From the NCBI RefSeq assembly GCF_017168335.1, contig NZ_JABFAU010000013.1:122499-186498 (forward strand): a stretch of 64,000 nucleotides of DNA. Reading direction: 5' to 3'. Positions 26,357 to 33,661 of the stretch are shown here, piece after piece (within the stretch, counting starts at the first letter, position 1; every line of letters begins with the position of its first letter). Origin of the DNA: Rhodococcus sp. KRD162 (GTDB lineage Bacteria > Actinomycetota > Actinomycetes > Mycobacteriales > Mycobacteriaceae). The notes under the pieces are model-generated. The model was not told the origin of the DNA and ran no database searches. It worked only from the letters and a program-made list of their open reading frames with translations. A program made the position numbers and the translations under genes.

Positions 26357-26442
26357 CAGGTCGCCGCGGGCGCTGTCGGTCTGCATGAGCTCATCGTGCA
26401 GGACGAACGCGGCGACGGGGTCGATACGACCGCACTCTCGAC

Positions 26443-27042
26443 CTACTCGACGCGAGAGTGCTCGGCGTTGAACCGGTCGATGAGGGCGCGGGCTGCTTCT
26501 CGCGCGGCATGCGCCCAGGCCGGCCCTGGTTCGGCGTAGGCACTGGCCATAGCGCCGTCGTACAGAGTCGTGAGCTGAAGGACGAGCATCTCGTCCGAGC
26601 CGGTGACACCTATCGGCTGCAGAAGATCGGCGAACAGTTCTCGCACCCATCCGCGATGCCCGAGATTGACGCGGTGCCCCGGCGAGTCCTGGGTCGACTC
26701 AGCCTCGGCGTTGATGAACGGGCAACCTCGAAAATCGTCCGTGACGAACCACTCGCCGAGGAGATCGAAGACCGACAACGCCTTGTCGATCGAGCTTCCC
26801 CCACGTGCCTCCAGCTGCTCGGCGACATGCCGCTGCCAGCCGTCGCTACGCCCCTGCAGATAGGCCGCCACCAGATCGTCCTTGGTGCGGAAATAGGTGT
26901 ACATGGTGGCCTTCGAGACGCTGGCCTCCTCGGCGATCAGATCGACACCCGTCGCATGGATCCCGCGTTCGTAGAAGAGCCGGTCGGCGGTCGCGAGGAC
27001 ACGCTCGAGCCCCGGCCTGCGGCGAGTCTTGACGGTGGTCAT
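26443..27042 (-). CDS. TetR-family transcriptional regulator
   Basis: A 199-residue TetR protein: DNA-binding domain at residues 10-60 (LFYERGIHATGVDLIAEEASVSKATMYTYFRTKDDLV), then a helical ligand domain of the LfrR/RutR-like group with GCPFINAEAE. It is divergent from the crotonase-family gene across 117 bp that contain three copies of one palindrome. Strong autoregulation and control of the divergent operon are very likely. Confidence 0.87.
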   Translation of the reverse strand: MTTVKTRRRPGLERVLATADRLFYERGIHATGVDLIAEEASVSKATMYTYFRTKDDLVAAYLQGRSDGWQRHVAEQLEARGGSSIDKALSVFDLLGEWFVTDDFRGCPFINAEAESTQDSPGHRVNLGHRGWVRELFADLLQPIGVTGSDEMLVLQLTTLYDGAMASAYAEPGPAWAHAAREAARALIDRFNAEHSRVE

Positions 27043-27060
27043 GTCCCGATCCTACCCGCA

Positions 27061-27139
27061 CTGAACAGATCTGTTCAGTCAAGACTTGACAACAACTGAA
27101 CCGACCTGTTCACTCGGATACATGAACAGACCTGTTCAG
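27061..27139. promoter_or_regulatory. Three TetR operator copies and divergent promoter
   Basis: The 18-mer CTGAACAGATCTGTTCAG (perfect palindrome) lies at 27061-27078, with variants at 27096-27113 and 27122-27139; the shared pattern is CTGAACNGACCTGTTCA(G/C). A TTGACA -35-like hexamer sits at 27086-27091 between the first two copies. The arrangement would block transcription in both directions when the repressor is bound. Confidence 0.8.
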
Positions 27140-27159
27140 TTAACGACGAAAGGCGCACC

Positions 27160-27918
27160 ATGACCGCCCCGGCATACTTCACCGAGTACGACAACTTCGC
27201 CATCACGCGCGACGAGGACGGCGTGCTGCTGGTGCGCCTCCACACGGACGGCGAACCGCTCACCTTCACCGGGCGAACTCACGAGGACTTTCCGGCCCTG
27301 CTCGAGAAGATCGCGCTGGATCGTGACAACAAGGCCATGGTGCTCACCGGCACCGGCGACTACTTCGTGAAAGACATCGACGGCCCGAGCCTCGGCGAGA
27401 TCTTCAAGCCGGCCGCCTGGGAGAAGACCCGTGTCGAGGGTGCGAAGGTTCTCCAGCGCCTGGTCGAGCTGCCCATGCCGGTGATCGGTGTCGCGAACGG
27501 CCCGGCGACCATCCACTCCGAATACCTGCTACTCGCCGATATCCACATCGCCTCCGAACAGGCCGAGTACGGCGACTCGCCGCACCCCACCTTCGGCATC
27601 ACCGCCGGCGACGGCGTCCAGGTCGTCTGGGAGGAGATCCTCGGAACCGCTCGCGCGAAGTGGTTGCTGTGGACCGGCGAGTCGATCGACGCGAACACCG
27701 CGCTGCAATGGGGCGTCGTCAGCGAGGTGCTGGCACACGATCGGGCGCTCGAACGCGGGCTCGAGATCGCACGCGGCCTCGCTGCGAAACCGGCTCTGTA
27801 CCGAACCCTGCAGAAGCAGACCCTGAACCGGAACCTGCGCAAACGAATCGTGCAGGACGTGCCGTTCGGCATGGCACTCGAGGGCCTCACCGCTGCCGAC
27901 ATGCCCTACCAGGGCTGA
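27160..27918 (+). CDS. Crotonase-family enzyme, 6-oxocamphor hydrolase-like
   Basis: A 252-residue crotonase-fold protein starting at ATG 27160 behind AAAGG. It is closest to 6-oxocamphor hydrolase, a beta-diketone C-C hydrolase of Rhodococcus, rather than to enoyl-CoA hydratases. The five residues I recall as catalytic there (H45, H122, H145, D154, E244) align with H41, H119, H142, D151 and E241 here, at nearly constant offset. HTDGEPLTF, LTGTGDYF and AKWLLWTG also match. Likely role: ring or chain cleavage of a 1,3-diketone from terpene or ketone breakdown. It is under a TetR promoter and followed by a mycothiol-dependent enzyme gene. Confidence 0.78.
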   Translation: MTAPAYFTEYDNFAITRDEDGVLLVRLHTDGEPLTFTGRTHEDFPALLEKIALDRDNKAMVLTGTGDYFVKDIDGPSLGEIFKPAAWEKTRVEGAKVLQRLVELPMPVIGVANGPATIHSEYLLLADIHIASEQAEYGDSPHPTFGITAGDGVQVVWEEILGTARAKWLLWTGESIDANTALQWGVVSEVLAHDRALERGLEIARGLAAKPALYRTLQKQTLNRNLRKRIVQDVPFGMALEGLTAADMPYQG

Positions 27919-27973
27919 CGCACACCGCCTCGCCCGCCTGCTCGAACCCCATCATCACCGACCGAGGAGAACA

Positions 27974-28765
27974 ATGTCCCACCGCAACCCGACGACGCGC
28001 CCCTCACGAGAATGGCTGGTCGCCCTACAGAGCTCCTCGAACGACCTACGGCACGTGGTCGACGGGCTGAACACGGAAGATCTGTCGCAGGCAACTCACA
28101 CCGGGGACTGGACAGTCGCGCAGGTTCTCTCGCACCTCGGCAGCGCCGCCGAGATCTGTACCGAACTGGTGCGCCGCGGGTTGGCCGGAGACCACCGCGG
28201 CCCGCAACGAGACGAACTCGTACCGATCTGGGACCGATGGAACTCCCTGAGCCCCATCGAGCAACGGCGGCAATGGCAGCACGCCGACGCCGCCCATCTC
28301 GGACTGCTCGCGGACATCACCGTCGAGCAGGAGAACACGCTGCAGATTCCGTACTTCGCCGGCCCGATGGACCTGACCACATACCTCGGCTACCGGCTCT
28401 CCGAACATGCCCTGCACGGCTGGGACATCGCGGAGGTGTTCGACCCGTCGGCGACGGTCGGCCAGCTCGACCTCGTATGGCGGCGAATCGACATGATCGC
28501 CTCTCGCTTCCACGACGGAGCAGTCCGGCAGCGACTCGCTGAGCGGCAGATCCTCGTGGTGCACGACGACCATCGCGATCGCCTCGTGATCGACGACGAA
28601 GTCCATATCGAGACCGGAACCGACCACAGTGCGCCGAGCACCGTCACCGGAACGTCCGACGCCCTGACCAGGCTCGTCTACGGTCGCCTCCGCCGTGAGG
28701 ACGATGTGCACGTCACCGGCCCGACACACCGCGAGGATCTCGAACAGCTGTTTCCCGGCTTCTGA
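27974..28765 (+). CDS. Maleylpyruvate isomerase-family mycothiol-dependent enzyme
   Basis: A 263-residue protein of the TIGR03083/DinB-like metal-binding family. The N-terminal four-helix bundle carries the metal ligands: His in VLSHLGSAAE and the His cluster RLSEHALHGWD. The C-terminal half is a small alpha/beta domain. These enzymes use mycothiol, the actinobacterial thiol, in place of glutathione. It lies 55 bp after the hydrolase gene in the same operon. Its last codons and the region beyond are copied at the right border of the downstream island. Confidence 0.82.
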   Translation: MSHRNPTTRPSREWLVALQSSSNDLRHVVDGLNTEDLSQATHTGDWTVAQVLSHLGSAAEICTELVRRGLAGDHRGPQRDELVPIWDRWNSLSPIEQRRQWQHADAAHLGLLADITVEQENTLQIPYFAGPMDLTTYLGYRLSEHALHGWDIAEVFDPSATVGQLDLVWRRIDMIASRFHDGAVRQRLAERQILVVHDDHRDRLVIDDEVHIETGTDHSAPSTVTGTSDALTRLVYGRLRREDDVHVTGPTHREDLEQLFPGF

Positions 28766-28785
28766 ACGGGTCCGGGAATACAAGA

Positions 28786-28874
28786 CACGAAAACCCCTCA
28801 CCGATTGCTGCTGGTGAGGGGGTTTCGTTCTCTGAGCCGCCTAAGAGAATCGAACTCTTGACCTTTTCATTACG
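28786..28874. mobile_element. Left att-like border: terminator plus 3' fragment of tRNA-Thr
   Basis: These 89 bases repeat 33539-33628 almost perfectly (one C fewer in the first run). They consist of a bidirectional terminator hairpin (arms 28794-28802 and 28813-28822) followed at 28835-28874 by the 3' 40 nt of tRNA-Thr from the anticodon to the discriminator base. Beyond 28874 the match to the tRNA stops. This is what a tyrosine-integrase insertion into a tRNA 3' end leaves behind. Confidence 0.85.
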
Positions 28875-29087
28875 GACCAACCTGCTCGATGGTCCATCTG
28901 GTATCGCTAGTTGCAAACAGCGCAGGTCAGTCGCTCCGGCGATTATTCGCATTCCAACCGTTCTTGCCGGGTGTGCACAGTTACCGTGCCCTTAAAGTGC
29001 CCTGATGGGTCGGATCCGAGATCCGACACAGGGGAGCCCCGACGAATCGCATTCGCTAAGAACGGGCGCACCTCGATATCTGGGCGC

Positions 29088-29642
29088 TCACGTTCCTTGC
29101 CTTCTCGGCGCTTGCTCGGGTGACCGTTGCCAGCGAACGCCACCGACGCTGTAGGTGACCACTGTCCCCAGATGCGCATCTCTCGCCTGAGAATCAATGT
29201 TAAATTTTCCGCGCCATGCCTGCGAATTTGGTTGCAGCGTTAGAGGTTTCGATCCGAACCAATCTTGGTTCGTCATTGCGGCGTGACCAAAACGAACGGA
29301 CTCAACCTCGACCAGTTTGTCAGTAAGGTTATCGACCGAGATCGAGACGGTTGTCTCGACACCTGCTGATTTCGCTTTACTCTCGCCCACGACTACGCGT
29401 TTCGCTAGCTCCTCTTCATCACCTCGATGTTTCCGCTCGGCAGCAGCGTCTGTGGAAACCTGATGAGAAAATGTTCGAATTGCCCACAAAATCGCAGCGA
29501 TGGTTCCGAGTGCCCCGACCCAGGTACCGCCTGCTGAAACCCAGGCGGCAGTCATATTCCCGTCAATCATCCATCCGACCATCGCGCCCAAGATGAAGAT
29601 AAAAACAGCCACGACCCCGACCAGCAAGTTACGTACAGTCAT
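29088..29642 (-). CDS. Hypothetical protein with two N-terminal membrane helices
   Basis: A 184-residue protein, taking the ATG of MTVRNLLVGVV at 29642. Two transmembrane segments come first (LLVGVVAVFIFILGAMVGWM and a second near residues 28-50, AGGTWVGALGTIAAILW). A charged stretch (AAAERKHRGDEEELAKR) follows, and then a soluble beta-rich domain with VSISVDNLTDKLVEVESVRFGH. No enzyme motif is visible and I do not recognise it. Membrane anchor plus cytoplasmic sensor is a shape often seen in defence islands, but that is only an analogy. Confidence 0.5.
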   Translation of the reverse strand: MTVRNLLVGVVAVFIFILGAMVGWMIDGNMTAAWVSAGGTWVGALGTIAAILWAIRTFSHQVSTDAAAERKHRGDEEELAKRVVVGESKAKSAGVETTVSISVDNLTDKLVEVESVRFGHAAMTNQDWFGSKPLTLQPNSQAWRGKFNIDSQARDAHLGTVVTYSVGGVRWQRSPEQAPRRQGT

Positions 29643-29818
29643 GCGCGGATCGTAGCGGGGACCATCTAAGCTCGGACCCTGACGTACATCTCTCGAACCA
29701 GCTAAACCGGCGGACCGCCCAAGAAAGTGGGCCACACCGGATTGCTCCCTGCACGGTCTTCAGCTCCGTGCAGCAACCTCGATGTTGAACGCTGCGGTTG
29801 GGCAGAGTGCGCCACCGC

Positions 29819-30328
29819 TCAGGCGATCAGGCTGCGGAGCGTTTTGACGAAATCGGTTGCCCTACGTCGAACGTCATCGCAGTACAGGTGCTCTTCGTTC
29901 GGGAGGGTCATAGTCGAGTGGTCGGCGAATGCGATGTGCGATGCAGTTCTGAACCATGGGCGTCCGAGGTCAGTTCTGACGAGATCCCCTACCTGTGTGA
30001 GGTGGAGACCAGTGATAGTTCGAATCGGTCGCGTCCATGCTGCGTTGATTGTCATCGCGGGTCGGTTGGTTCGCCGCCAAGGCGAGGACTCTTCCTCGCG
30101 GTCGTAGTTGTCGGTGTCGTACTGGATCTCGGTGTGGACGATAGCGGTTGGGGTGAGTGCGAAGACGCGCCACTTCGTCGGCTCCGTTGAGTCGTACTCG
30201 GTGAACGAGACCACGATGTCGTTGGCGTCGACGAGCGTCCCGACTGTATGAATAACGTGCCGCGGCGGTAGCGAAGTGGCAGTGAGGTGCTCGTCGAGTA
30301 GCTTCCGGTGCTCAAGGTCCAGTTCCAT
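29819..30328 (-). CDS. Hypothetical protein of unknown function
   Basis: A 169-residue protein starting MELDLEHRKLLDEHL at 30328; a longer frame upstream lacks convincing sequence. It is mixed alpha/beta, with strands such as HVIHTVGTLVDANDIVVSFTE and WRVFALTPTAIVHTEIQYD, then PWFRTASHIAFAD. The strand-rich middle recalls a bacterial PH-like fold, without firm evidence. There is no membrane segment or signal peptide. Composition is lower in GC than the flanking core genes. Confidence 0.5.
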   Translation of the reverse strand: MELDLEHRKLLDEHLTATSLPPRHVIHTVGTLVDANDIVVSFTEYDSTEPTKWRVFALTPTAIVHTEIQYDTDNYDREEESSPWRRTNRPAMTINAAWTRPIRTITGLHLTQVGDLVRTDLGRPWFRTASHIAFADHSTMTLPNEEHLYCDDVRRRATDFVKTLRSLIA

Positions 30329-30702
30329 ACCGTAAAAGTAGCGGTGGGCTACGACAGGTTCGGAGCAATCCGAATCGACCCTGCGACTCGACCGGTCGAT
30401 TTTGAGGGGCCTGCCAGCTCCGGCTGGACACGCCCCGGATGAGATTTTCCCATCCTGGTCACTCTGGCATGTCCCCAGAAGCATGTCCTCGGTCACAAGT
30501 TCCCTCAGACGATCAACCCGATCGACGCCTCAAGAACGTTTACCTGTCGTGCGCAGCTTCCTCAGCACTTTCGGACGCATCGCCGAGCCGCCGGCGGGTA
30601 CCGCACTAAGCAGCTATGGACGACGACCGCTCCCCCGTCCAGAGCGCTGGTGGCCGGCCGCCAAGTCGACAGAATTGTGATTGATGCGATGAAACTTTGT
30701 GA
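30329..30702. other. Non-coding spacer within the island
   Basis: Between the leftward hypothetical gene and the ImmA gene I see no supported gene, RNA or terminator. Short open frames here have no family features or ribosome sites. Confidence 0.5.
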
Positions 30703-31659
30703 TCAAGAGAAGTCGGCTAGCTTCCACCGAAGCCACGAATCGAACTCCGTCGTCTGCAAGGCGCTCTCGGTCAGAAGTCTCCACTTTGCATAGGAATAGG
30801 CCAACTCCGGGACGGCGAGAAGGCGACGAGTTTTCTGTGATCCCATCAAGCCTGCGATCTTGGAATGAAGTTGATGTGCAGTGAAGGCGTTGCCCGACAT
30901 CTCGGCTACCCGCATCAGCTTCTCGTCTGCCTCTGCCCGGCCCGAAAGCAATTCGGGCATAACCTCCCTGCGGAAGCGCCGCCACCAGCGAACAGTCTGC
31001 CCGTGGAGCGTTACGACACCGCCCGGATGACAAGTCGCGTCGAGCTCCCTTCGACGGATCACCCTCCGCTCCTGGGAGAGGATGGGATCTGCATTGTTCA
31101 TTTGAAAAGCCCAACCGACAGGGAGCACAGAGCTGAGCGCGATTAGTGAGGCTGTAACGCTGGTTTCGGCTTCGCCAAGGGCCGACAACACTTTCGTCAT
31201 GTCAAACTTATGCTCGGTCATCAGGTCGGCCACCCATACCTCCGGCATAAGAAGTTCGGCTGCAAAAGCGTTGGCCTCGACTTCACGCGGGTCGGTTTGA
31301 TTCGACTTGTCTAGTAGGCACTCACTGTCTCCAAAGTGCCACGCGAGCATTACGTGGCCAAGCTCGTGGGCAATTGTGAAACGCGTGCGCAGGCGGTCGA
31401 CGTCACTGCGAAAGAAGATTTTTGGCTCAAGACCGCCGCAGTCGATGGACAAACCGTCTACACCGGTAAAGGGCCAGTTCGCCTCTTCGAGGGTTGCATA
31501 GTGGCTGACCACCTCGGCGACATCAACAGGCTGTGTTAGACCATGCCGTTCACGCAGTGTTGAGGCAGCATTGCGCGATGCGTCACGATCTGGGGACGCC
31601 CCGGACCGACGTAGTGGGTCGGCCACGTTCCCTAAATACGTCCACGTTCGATCAGCCAC
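30703..31659 (-). CDS. ImmA/IrrE-family zinc metallopeptidase
   Basis: A 318-residue protein. The zinc site is FTIAHELGHVMLAWHFG, with a downstream Glu in REVEANAFAAELLMP, typical of ImmA/IrrE peptidases that cleave regulators or antitoxins. A C-terminal extension of about 120 residues has no named domain (RRWRRFRREVMPELL region). No helix-turn-helix is obvious at the N-terminus, where members usually have one or pair with one. Its start overlaps the preceding small gene by 28 bases, so the two are co-expressed. Confidence 0.78.
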   Translation of the reverse strand: MADRTWTYLGNVADPLRRSGASPDRDASRNAASTLRERHGLTQPVDVAEVVSHYATLEEANWPFTGVDGLSIDCGGLEPKIFFRSDVDRLRTRFTIAHELGHVMLAWHFGDSECLLDKSNQTDPREVEANAFAAELLMPEVWVADLMTEHKFDMTKVLSALGEAETSVTASLIALSSVLPVGWAFQMNNADPILSQERRVIRRRELDATCHPGGVVTLHGQTVRWWRRFRREVMPELLSGRAEADEKLMRVAEMSGNAFTAHQLHSKIAGLMGSQKTRRLLAVPELAYSYAKWRLLTESALQTTEFDSWLRWKLADFS

Positions 31660-31964
31660 TGCAGGACCGATGCCGCGTCCTCTGGTGAAGCAGAACGCGC
31701 GGCGAGCGCGTAGGAACTCTGCCCCACTAGCAGTTCTGCGACCGGTACCCCTAGCTTGTGTGCAGCGACAATTACAGACAACGACTCCGGCTTCTCAACC
31801 CAGAGAGCGCCTTCGCCATCGGAAAAGCCGAGAAACTCGTCGAGACTAGGCTCTGAACCCGCAAAATCTGTGTCGTGCCACGTGTCAACCCAGTCGTCGA
31901 TGTCGCGAGCGAATGCCTCACCCCGGACGCAGGCATCGACAAAAGTAGTAGCTGACTCAGACAT
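31632..31964 (-). CDS. Small acidic protein, putative immunity protein or antitoxin
   Basis: A 110-residue, strongly acidic protein (MSESATTFVDACVRGEAF, then DIDDWVDTWHD and EFLGFSDGEGALWVEKPESL). The start at 31964 has a very good GGAAGGAGC ribosome site that lies inside the 3' end of the upstream toxin-like gene. It sits between an RNase-toxin domain and an ImmA peptidase. Either role is possible: immunity to the RNase, or antitoxin acted on by the peptidase. The alternating acidic N-terminus suits binding to a basic toxin. Confidence 0.55.
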   Translation of the reverse strand: MSESATTFVDACVRGEAFARDIDDWVDTWHDTDFAGSEPSLDEFLGFSDGEGALWVEKPESLSVIVAAHKLGVPVAELLVGQSSYALAARSASPEDAASVLQWLIERGRI

Positions 31965-32304
31965 CGATGCTCCTTCCGTTGACTGCCGGACCAATCCGTT
32001 CGCCCGTCCTCACGTCCAACACGGCGACGTGGCGGCCGCGTCTTGTATACGCTTCTACGTGGCCGTGTCTACGATCGTACGTGTAAATACGCTGTTTCGT
32101 ACCGTCACGCCATCTTGACTCGCCGTTCCACGAATATTTTTCCATGAGCGACAAAAAGTCCGGCTCTTGCCTCGCGATGTACTGCCCGTCCAAACGAGGC
32201 GACCTCCACTCGACATCTGACGCATACTGCGCACCGATACCGTAACCGCCCTCGCGGTCGTCGACGCAATCGACACCCACGCTGACGACGGAGCCCGCGG
32301 GCAC
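31957..32304 (-). CDS. Colicin E3-type ribonuclease domain protein
   Basis: A 115-residue protein starting at GTG 32304 behind AAGGAAC. The C-terminal 55 residues resemble the cytotoxic rRNase domain of colicin E3: W(x)nGTKQRIYTYDRRHGHVEAY, then GRHVAVLDVRTGE and a final GRSIDV. The catalytic D-x-x-H-x-x-x-E of colicin E3 (D510, H513, E517) lines up with D, H and E in YDRRHGHVEAY. Such domains cut 16S rRNA in the decoding centre. No export, translocation or receptor domain remains, so it is either a stand-alone toxin or the end of a larger polymorphic toxin; an in-frame stop lies 20 codons upstream. It overlaps the next gene by eight bases. Confidence 0.62.
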   Translation of the reverse strand: MPAGSVVSVGVDCVDDREGGYGIGAQYASDVEWRSPRLDGQYIARQEPDFLSLMEKYSWNGESRWRDGTKQRIYTYDRRHGHVEAYTRRGRHVAVLDVRTGERIGPAVNGRSIDV

Positions 32305-32579
32305 CGTTCCTTGGGTGTCCTGCGGGGTGTCGTTTCGGCGCTGAGGGGTACAGGCGGCAGATTCCTACACCCGCTCATGCATTCCGCCACCGGTCAATTC
32401 ACCTTCACCCCGGCGGGCGGCAAGTTTGACGCCGAAGTCGTGGTGGGCCGGGACGTATCACCCTGAGCAACGGTCATCGACGAAAGCATCGAACGAATAG
32501 TCTGCACAGATAGGCCGCGGTGTTACAGCAGCTCGAGGCGGTGCATCTGATTCCCGCCGATCACGGGAAGCAACCGGCG
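32305..32579. other. Degenerate spacer before the integrase remnant
   Basis: No intact gene is seen. A short rightward frame ending at 32465 (FTFTPAGGKFDAEV region) looks like the end of some protein but cannot be assigned. The leftward toxin frame extends 20 codons past its GTG before meeting a stop. Confidence 0.4.
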
Positions 32580-33480
32580 TTCCCGCTCGGTAAGATCGCC
32601 GGACTAGGCGTGCTCGTATATGACACACTTGTCGTCGAGGCGTTCACCACAGCCCCTTGCCGGGTACCAGCGATGCATCGACAAGATCATCGCGTCGGGC
32701 CTCAGCAAGGTTCGACAACACGAGGCCACCACCGGCCGAATCGAGATCTTCCTCCAGGCTGTGCGTACGACTCCGGGAAGCGTGACGCGCGGGAAATCCT
32801 CAGCCAGGCGTTTGCTCTCGCCGCACGGCTCGATGCGGTCGACAGCAATCCGGTGAGAGACACCAGCCCAGCCACGACCTCGAGCAACCAAGCTCGCGCC
32901 CTCGATGTCAACGACGTGCACGAGCTACGCCGACGAGTTGCCGCATGGCAGGACCGAGACCTGGGCGACGGCCGCAAGCGGTTCGGCCCGGAACGCGCCC
33001 ACGATCTGGCAGCGGTCATCGACGTGATGATCGGCCCCGGTACCCGGATCGGTGAATGCCTTGCGCTCCGATGGCTGGACGTCGCGGGCCTCGATGGTGA
33101 CGGCCCTGTAGTGGTGACCGTTGCGGGGACACTCGTCGAGCTGGCCGGCACCGGGGTGTTTCTCCAGAACCACCCGAAGACAAAGAGCGGCCGGCGCTCG
33201 GTGACGATCCCTGCCTTTTCAGCCGATGCCCTGGGAAGACAACGGGACCGCGGTATCCCGTCGGCCGAGGGCCTGGTGTTCCCCTCTCGACTCGGCACGC
33301 CGCGGTGGCCGGGAAACGTCCGGACCTCGTGGCGACAGGTGCGAGGAGACGACTACGCCTGGGTGAAGCCGCACAGCTTCCGCAAGACCGTAGGGACGAT
33401 GATCGAGCGCGAACTCGGACTGAGCGCGGCGTCGGCACAGCTCGGGCACTCGAACAGCTGTTCCCCGGCTTCTGAGTCGA
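32580..33480 (+). pseudogene. Tyrosine integrase, frameshifted and lacking its catalytic tyrosine
   Basis: The core-binding domain (LAGYQRCIDKIIASGL, ATTGRIEIFLQAV) is read in one frame to about 32780. From about 32790 the catalytic domain continues in another frame (AREILSQAFALAARLD onward), so at least one frameshift is present. The catalytic part keeps Arg-I in GTRIGECLALRW, HSFRKT and the LGHS motif. It then leaves the family: LGHSN is followed by SCSPASESIREL, encoded by copied host sequence. The nucleophilic Tyr, normally about ten residues on, is missing. The gene points toward the tRNA, as expected for a tRNA-targeting integrase. It should be inactive. Confidence 0.8.
33453..33476. 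repeat. Second copy of the 3' end of the mycothiol-enzyme gene
   Basis: These 24 bases match 28742-28765, the last codons and stop of the mycothiol-dependent enzyme gene, with one mismatch. Partial matches continue (tccggga) before the perfect att repeat begins at 33539. Here the sequence is read as the end of the integrase frame. The shared ctcgaac before the copy could be the microhomology at the junction. Confidence 0.7.
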
Positions 33481-33538
33481 TCCGGGAGTTGGTGCGCTAC
33501 AGGCTGTTCGACGCCAGTCCGATCCCGGTGCCGAGACG

Positions 33539-33628
33539 CACGAAAACCCCCTCACCGATTGCTGCTGGTGAGGGGGTTTCGTTCTCTGAGCCGCCTAAGA
33601 GAATCGAACTCTTGACCTTTTCATTACG
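33539..33628. mobile_element. Right att-like border overlapping tRNA-Thr
   Basis: Direct repeat of 28786-28874: a terminator hairpin (arms 33547-33556 and 33567-33576) plus the 3' 40 nt of tRNA-Thr. Here the tRNA continues to its full length, so the functional gene was rebuilt at this end. The hairpin is a terminator for the leftward tRNA. Confidence 0.85.
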
Positions 33629-33661
33629 AGTGAAATGCTCTACCGACTGAGCTAAGGCGGC
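33589..33661 (-). tRNA. tRNA-Thr (anticodon CGT)
   Basis: 73 nt. The acceptor stem pairs GCCGCCU with AGGCGGC, followed by a U discriminator; the D-loop is AGUCGGUAGA and the anticodon loop CUCGUAA gives anticodon CGU, which reads ACG threonine codons. The T-arm contains UUCGAUU. CCA is not encoded. A hairpin terminator follows on the minus strand. It serves as the integration target of the adjoining island. Confidence 0.93.

Follow-up and report, generated by a model that had tools for sequence, protein, structure and literature searches.

A recurrent trio of a colicin E3-type RNase, a small acidic protein and an IrrE-like peptidase as a candidate three-component toxin-antitoxin system

Introduction

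Proteases of the ImmA/IrrE kind have been predicted or reported next to toxins. Makarova et al. 2009 (PMC2701414) predicted a system in which a COG2856 protease cuts an Xre repressor, which would be a possible antitoxin of RelE or PIN toxins, and an ImmA-type antitoxin is reported for RosmerTA (PMC10440598). A review of PF09000 toxins (PMC9990079) lists bacteriocins and delivered effectors. Here we describe a locus of Rhodococcus sp. KRD162 in which a gene for a colicin E3-type RNase is followed by genes for a small acidic protein and an IrrE/CapP-like zinc peptidase. It lies in a stretch of 64,000 nucleotides (contig NZ_JABFAU010000013.1, positions 122,499 to 186,498), called the window below, to which all coordinates refer.

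The trio may be a mobile three-component toxin-antitoxin (TA) system with peptidase-triggered release of the toxin, a reading to which we assign a probability of roughly 0.55. It rests on the identities of the genes, their order and wide recurrence, the co-variation of the three proteins, and an association between the peptidase and a C-terminal extension of the small protein.

Identity of the three proteins

An earlier note on this DNA had described three leftward genes overlapping by 8 and 28 bases, which would encode a protein with the D-x-x-H-x-x-x-E pattern of colicin E3, a likely immunity protein or antitoxin, and an ImmA/IrrE zinc peptidase. All three identifications agree with the results given here. 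The open reading frames (ORFs) lie on the minus strand at 31957-32304, 31632-31964 and 30703-31659 and overlap as described, but only the first overlap is solid. Of 63 junctions between toxin and small protein (L001, L002 and L038 were left out), 42 offer a start codon for the 8-base overlap, and ATGTCTAA is found in 22 of these 42. The second overlap is uncertain because the peptidase could also begin at GTG 31626, which follows the small-protein stop after a gap of 5 bases and is preceded by AGGGAAC. The two closest relatives are arranged in this way, with gaps of 12 bases (L053) and 6 bases (L054), and the 28-base overlap may be the product of a wrong peptidase start.

The first protein (P0001; 31957-32193, minus strand) is very probably a free-standing E3-type ribosomal RNA nuclease (rRNase) toxin. 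In Pfam it scores 47.2 bits (E = 2.9e-12) against Cytotoxic (PF09000), the family of the colicin E3 rRNase domain, well above the curated cut-off of 22 bits, and the D-x-x-H-x-x-x-E pattern is present. A profile of the toxin family matches colicin E3 in PDB (2e-14), and the Asp, His, Glu and C-terminal Arg of colicin E3, which we take to be its catalytic residues, align with the same positions in this profile. Among 61 aligned toxins, D40 is conserved in 60 and H43, E47, G73 and R74 are conserved in all. As first read, the ORF begins at GTG 32304 and encodes 115 amino acids (aa). A start at TTG 32193, with the Shine-Dalgarno-like sequence GGAGG nine bases upstream, would give a 78-aa product with an isoelectric point (pI) of 9.6. 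Given this spacing and the length of most homologues that adjoin the small protein (75-80 aa), TTG 32193 is probably the true start. No translocation or receptor-binding domains precede the RNase in the ORF, which measures 135 codons from stop to stop and whose likely product has 78 aa. The toxins are generally basic (median pI 9.4; 57 of 61 above 7).

The second protein (P0002; 31632-31964, minus strand) has an ATG start, 110 aa and a pI of 4.17. It has no match in Pfam at E values up to 1 and likewise none in NCBIfam, so that the colicin-type immunity family Cloacin_immun is not matched beside the toxin. Three PHROGs with no assigned function are matched weakly (below E 0.001). The family alignment defines an N-terminal domain with the motif IDDxxDxWH...LHEFLGM..xEYxLW and a C-terminal extension with the motif AARA...WL. 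The small proteins are acidic (median pI 4.7; 51 of 52 below 7), and their charge is complementary to that of the toxins. Weak Pfam matches of the 52 small proteins include no helix-turn-helix (HTH) or Xre families, and a fold search with a structure model of moderate confidence (mean predicted local distance difference test score, pLDDT, of 77) gave no match. The pattern across loci described below fits the proposed role, and we consider it quite probable that this protein is the antidote of the toxin.

The third protein (P0003; 30703-31626 or 30703-31659, minus strand) measures 307 aa if it begins at GTG 31626 and 318 aa if it begins at GTG 31659. It matches Peptidase_M78 (PF06114) in Pfam (1.2e-11), capP in PADLOC (1.1e-26) and, weakly, RmrA (best 1.7e-12). 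It has the HExxH motif with a downstream Glu and an IrrE-like fold that are features of Peptidase M78/ImmA/IrrE proteins; its closest folds are IrrE/PprI and CapP, and HExxH is present in all 39 aligned peptidases. A helical region makes up its C-terminus. When 396 genomes of the phylum were searched from the peptidase side, 63 gave a match at 1e-10. The match spans the full length only in two trios (G000 and G507), and the other listed ones fall within model positions 6-199, which suggests that in this sample the C-terminal region is confined to trios.

Recurrence of the gene trio

The earlier note had made its proposal depend on the three genes occurring together elsewhere, and they do. They were first sighted outside KRD162 on a fecal phage contig (L003). 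When species genomes were scanned with an alignment of six small proteins, at least 76 loci were found, 71 of which are counted here; the others have short flanks (L075, L093 and L119) or no small-protein match (L121 and L126). According to profiles of the three families, genes for all three proteins stand next to one another in the same order in 43 of the 71 usable loci among the matches listed. Within these 43 trios, HExxH is kept in 41 peptidases, D..HG..E is kept in 42 toxins, and the peptidase ORF has at least 290 aa in 38, again among the matches listed. The 43 include one weak peptidase match that lacks HExxH (L058), one 55-aa peptidase remnant (L061) and one frameshifted toxin (L087).

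Trios occur in Actinomycetota, Bacteroidota, Pseudomonadota, Cyanobacteriota, Bacillota and Desulfobacterota, as judged from record titles and general taxonomy; Azotobacter vinelandii (L082), a harmless soil species, is one of the carriers. Since several of the records are metagenome-assembled genomes (MAGs), single odd phyla could reflect contamination. Two Spirochaetota MAGs are also among the trios, with peptidases that are shortened or doubtful. Pairwise distances in 38 trios are correlated between toxin and peptidase (r = 0.72), peptidase and small protein (r = 0.70), and toxin and small protein (r = 0.47; p = 0.0005 for each), a pattern that one would expect of a cassette moving as a whole.

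Among viral contigs, 27 loci were found in a scan with the small protein. The toxin gene is present in five of them and all three genes in three (L011, L012 and L015); the remaining 22 (L016-L037) have no trio toxin or peptidase alongside the small protein and no visible extension. In addition, 49 Streptomyces phage records, duplicates included, contain a 36-residue match to the small-protein core. A Gordonia phage (L002) has a variant arrangement in which the toxin carries an N-terminal extension and the small-protein domain lies inside a 284-aa protein; this pair adjoins an immunity repressor and a separate small metalloprotease. In this phage, Phabuloso (L002, 3740-5565), the genes labeled HicA-like and HicB-like are those of the E3-type rRNase and the protein with the small-protein domain, and they overlap by 8 bases ahead of the metalloprotease. 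Judging from these matches, the Hic label looks doubtful.

In searches with the toxin profile, 19 of 301 genomes from the family gave a match, as did 4 of 296 from the phylum. In the phylum to which a Vibrio genome belongs, 6 of 398 were matched; these counts include the KRD162 genome and the central Vibrio genome. Within about 1.5 kb on each side of the 29 toxin-side loci (L129-L157), the small protein is found in five and the peptidase in four. It is these four peptidase-bearing loci whose toxin ORF measures 76-115 aa, with a match that covers nearly all of the model; the window and the Vibrio genome are two of the four and do not count as independent. The fifth small-protein locus (L131) is of the Gordonia phage type. 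Neither partner was found within about 1.5 kb of the other 24, which are mostly ORFs of 308-456 aa with a few that are partial or have 119-153 aa.

The C-terminal extension and the peptidase

The peptidase adjoins the small protein in 44 of 49 loci with an extended form and in none of 22 with a short form among the matches listed (Fisher p = 6e-14), where 'extended' is defined by the motif or by the profile end and L103 is a borderline case. The toxin is still present in 10 of the 22 short-form loci, which have no peptidase. This distribution suggests a division of the small protein in which its first part answers to the toxin and its extension to the peptidase. The arrangement on a Rhodococcus opacus plasmid (L007) fits this proposal. 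Its small protein resembles P0002 in the later part of the sequence (38% over 68 residues), and its peptidase is related to P0003 (29% over 187).

In the plasmid segment itself (L007, 1740-4304), a gene annotated as a zeta toxin stands ahead of the small protein, with the related peptidase beside them. A toxin swap is possible at this locus, as far as the comparison of its genes indicates.

Six loci retain an intact toxin and an extended small protein with a peptidase that is missing or broken. None was found in L065 and L081, a short remnant persists in L061, and the gene is shortened or frameshifted in L070, L083 and L089. Loss of the peptidase beside a live toxin thus seems to be tolerated, which argues against the peptidase as antidote and for a role as activator. 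Other kinds of decay also occur. A frameshifted toxin stands beside a kept small protein and peptidase in L087, a 21-residue toxin match is left next to a shortened peptidase in L110, and neither toxin nor peptidase was found alongside the extended small proteins of L090, L103 and L107. Taken together, the extension-peptidase link and the six broken-peptidase loci point to the small protein as the likely antidote and to the peptidase as the likely trigger.

A genomic island in a tRNA-Thr gene

In the window, the trio is flanked by direct repeats of 85 bp that are 99% identical and 4754 bp apart, which delimit a 4.75-kb island. The right repeat (33544-33628) overlaps a tRNA-Thr (CGT) gene (33588-33661, minus strand), the insertion site according to relatives that lack the island. 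The left, att-like repeat (28790-28874) contains the 3' half of the tRNA at 28834-28874. A tyrosine integrase gene (32520-33475, plus strand) is decayed: its PF00589 match ends at position 159 of 172, and its N-terminal half is broken up among reading frames. The island has therefore probably lost the ability to move by itself. The island also encodes a 225-aa ORF (29819-30496, minus strand), to which family searches assign no function, and a 215-aa ORF (29088-29735), which has a hydrophobic stretch near its N-terminus and no clear family.

The tRNA region is matched in all 37 genomes of the genus that were searched, including KRD162. Six of 11 relatives (L159-L162, L166 and L167) lack the island, and in these the tRNA side joins sequence matching the window up to about 26.43 kb, with 58-96 bases between; such a junction was not seen within the stretches of the remaining five. 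Because the region from 26.43 to about 28.8 kb is also absent at the six island-free sites, the difference (26430-33588 as a whole) is larger than the 4.75-kb island. A DNA match of 79.6% to part of the 225-aa ORF (window 30002-30158) lies near the same tRNA in genome G151 of the genus (L163, 2406-2562), and a related island is therefore probably present there. A separate 39-nucleotide match (87%) links window 28739-28777, at the 3' end of an MDMPI-like gene (27974-28765), with 33449-33487, at the end of the truncated integrase, and may be the mark of an old recombination.

Proposed mechanism and alternatives

If the trio is a TA system with peptidase-triggered release, then the basic 78-aa protein would act inside the cell as an E3-type RNase that, by analogy with its family, cleaves the decoding site of 16S rRNA and halts translation. 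The translationally coupled small protein would neutralize it through the N-terminal domain. The peptidase would stay dormant until a signal arrives, which by family precedent could be single-stranded DNA from damage or phage infection, and would then recognize or cut the small protein through its C-terminal extension (AAR...WL). The freed toxin would arrest or kill the cell. Here we infer the binding of toxin and antidote, the cleavage of the antidote, the signal, the rRNA cut site and any role in abortive infection. That the peptidase is the trigger of toxin release is, in our judgment, slightly favored.

Several points weigh against this reading. The association statistics ignore shared ancestry, and the set of loci includes near-duplicates (L072/L079 and L085/L086, for instance). 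When the small protein is split, both parts correlate with both partners, so that their contacts are not separated. MAGs, in which errors can mimic breaks, account for four of the six loci with a missing or broken peptidase (L061, L065, L070 and L083), and a scan based on the small protein is blind to loci that have lost it. The cysteine of the proposed switch loop is found in only 11 of 39 peptidases, and the trio shows no clear defense-island context.

The small protein might also repress the operon, and its cleavage would then raise expression in the manner of ImmR/ImmA, DdrO/PprI and CapH/CapP, with toxin release a by-product or absent. The nearest peptidase folds, IrrE/PprI and CapP, do belong to proteins that cut repressors, but the 52 small proteins gave no HTH/Xre match in Pfam and the fold search gave no match, and a toxin operon without its own neutralizer would be hard to keep. 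We rate such transcriptional control as unlikely. More doubtful still is a RosmerTA-like arrangement in which the peptidase belongs to the antidote and acts on the toxin by neutralizing or degrading it, the small protein serving as an adaptor. The ImmA-type antitoxins reported for RosmerTA and the weak RmrA matches of P0003 would be in keeping with it; the six loci that combine an intact toxin and small protein with a missing or broken peptidase, and the ten short-form loci with a toxin and no peptidase, are not. We give very little credence to the idea that a bacteriocin or polymorphic toxin has left its toxin-immunity cassette behind. Delivered toxins are indeed where PF09000 is mostly known from, but what recurs here is a complete protein of about 75-80 aa, and no small protein was found within about 1.5 kb on each side of E3 proteins of at least 300 aa in the 1197 genome entries searched.

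A different question is what the trio is for. It could be a selfish addiction module, one that serves to retain mobile elements and has no role in defense, a view that we hold to be possible at odds somewhat below even. Its position on an island in tRNA-Thr, its presence in viral contigs, and the small number of genomes in the phylum with a toxin-domain match (only 4 of 296) are compatible with such a role. However, addiction needs only a toxin and an antidote, which leaves the kept sensor-type peptidase unexplained. Rather speculatively, the trio might belong to a widespread and so far undescribed class of suicide switch triggered by damage or phage, in which an IrrE-type sensor protease removes or attacks a C-terminal handle of the antidote. 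Phages would answer with orphan antidotes that keep the toxin-binding domain without the handle and so could not be switched off, and toxin swapping may also exist.

If the proposed TA system is real, then the colicin E3 rRNase would serve here inside the cell, as a toxin for regulated self-killing, and would be paired with an antidote family that lacks a Pfam name. The system would also offer a compact test case, available in several phyla, for the 2009 prediction of protease-controlled three-part TA systems. The handle idea is open to a direct test, since forms with and without the peptidase and extension both exist in nature. If the phage orphans are decoy antidotes, then they would form a counter-defense family that can be found by sequence.

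Comparison with described systems

The earlier note knew of no described system with this composition, which is only partly right. No description of an E3 rRNase together with a small antidote and an ImmA-type protease was found by title or abstract start in the full-text literature, a coverage that excludes most subscription papers and all preprints. However, the general three-component design of toxin, Xre antitoxin and COG2856 protease was predicted in 2009, and RosmerTA, CapH/CapP and VapBC52 are near in concept. The E3 rRNases colicin E3, pyocin S6 and CdiA-CT share the catalytic domain, with the D, H, E and C-terminal R of the trio toxin aligned to colicin E3. They are delivered multidomain proteins (PMC9990079) with other immunity genes, whereas the trio toxin appears to be a 78-aa intracellular protein.

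In RosmerTA (PMC10440598), an ImmA-type protease likewise adjoins a toxin, but the protease domain is inside the antitoxin and the toxins are diverse other ones. CapH/CapP and DdrO/PprI have the same peptidase fold and a protease that cuts a small partner. This partner is a transcriptional repressor, and these systems have no dedicated rRNase toxin. VapBC52 of Mycobacterium tuberculosis (PMC13273310) also ties an IrrE/CapP-like peptidase to toxin neutralization, and cleavage triggered by single-stranded DNA frees its toxin. In that system, however, peptidase and antitoxin are one self-cutting protein and the toxin is a PIN tRNase. In the systems predicted by Makarova et al. (PMC2701414), the toxins are of the RelE or PIN kind and the protease often carries a fused Xre HTH domain, whereas the trio has an E3 rRNase, a separate protease and a separate small protein with no detected HTH. 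What the predicted systems have in common with the trio is a toxin, an antitoxin and a protease of IrrE/ImmA type for which cleavage of the antitoxin is proposed, and the trio loci likewise combine a COG2856-type protease, a toxin and a small protein, the putative antidote, in one operon order.
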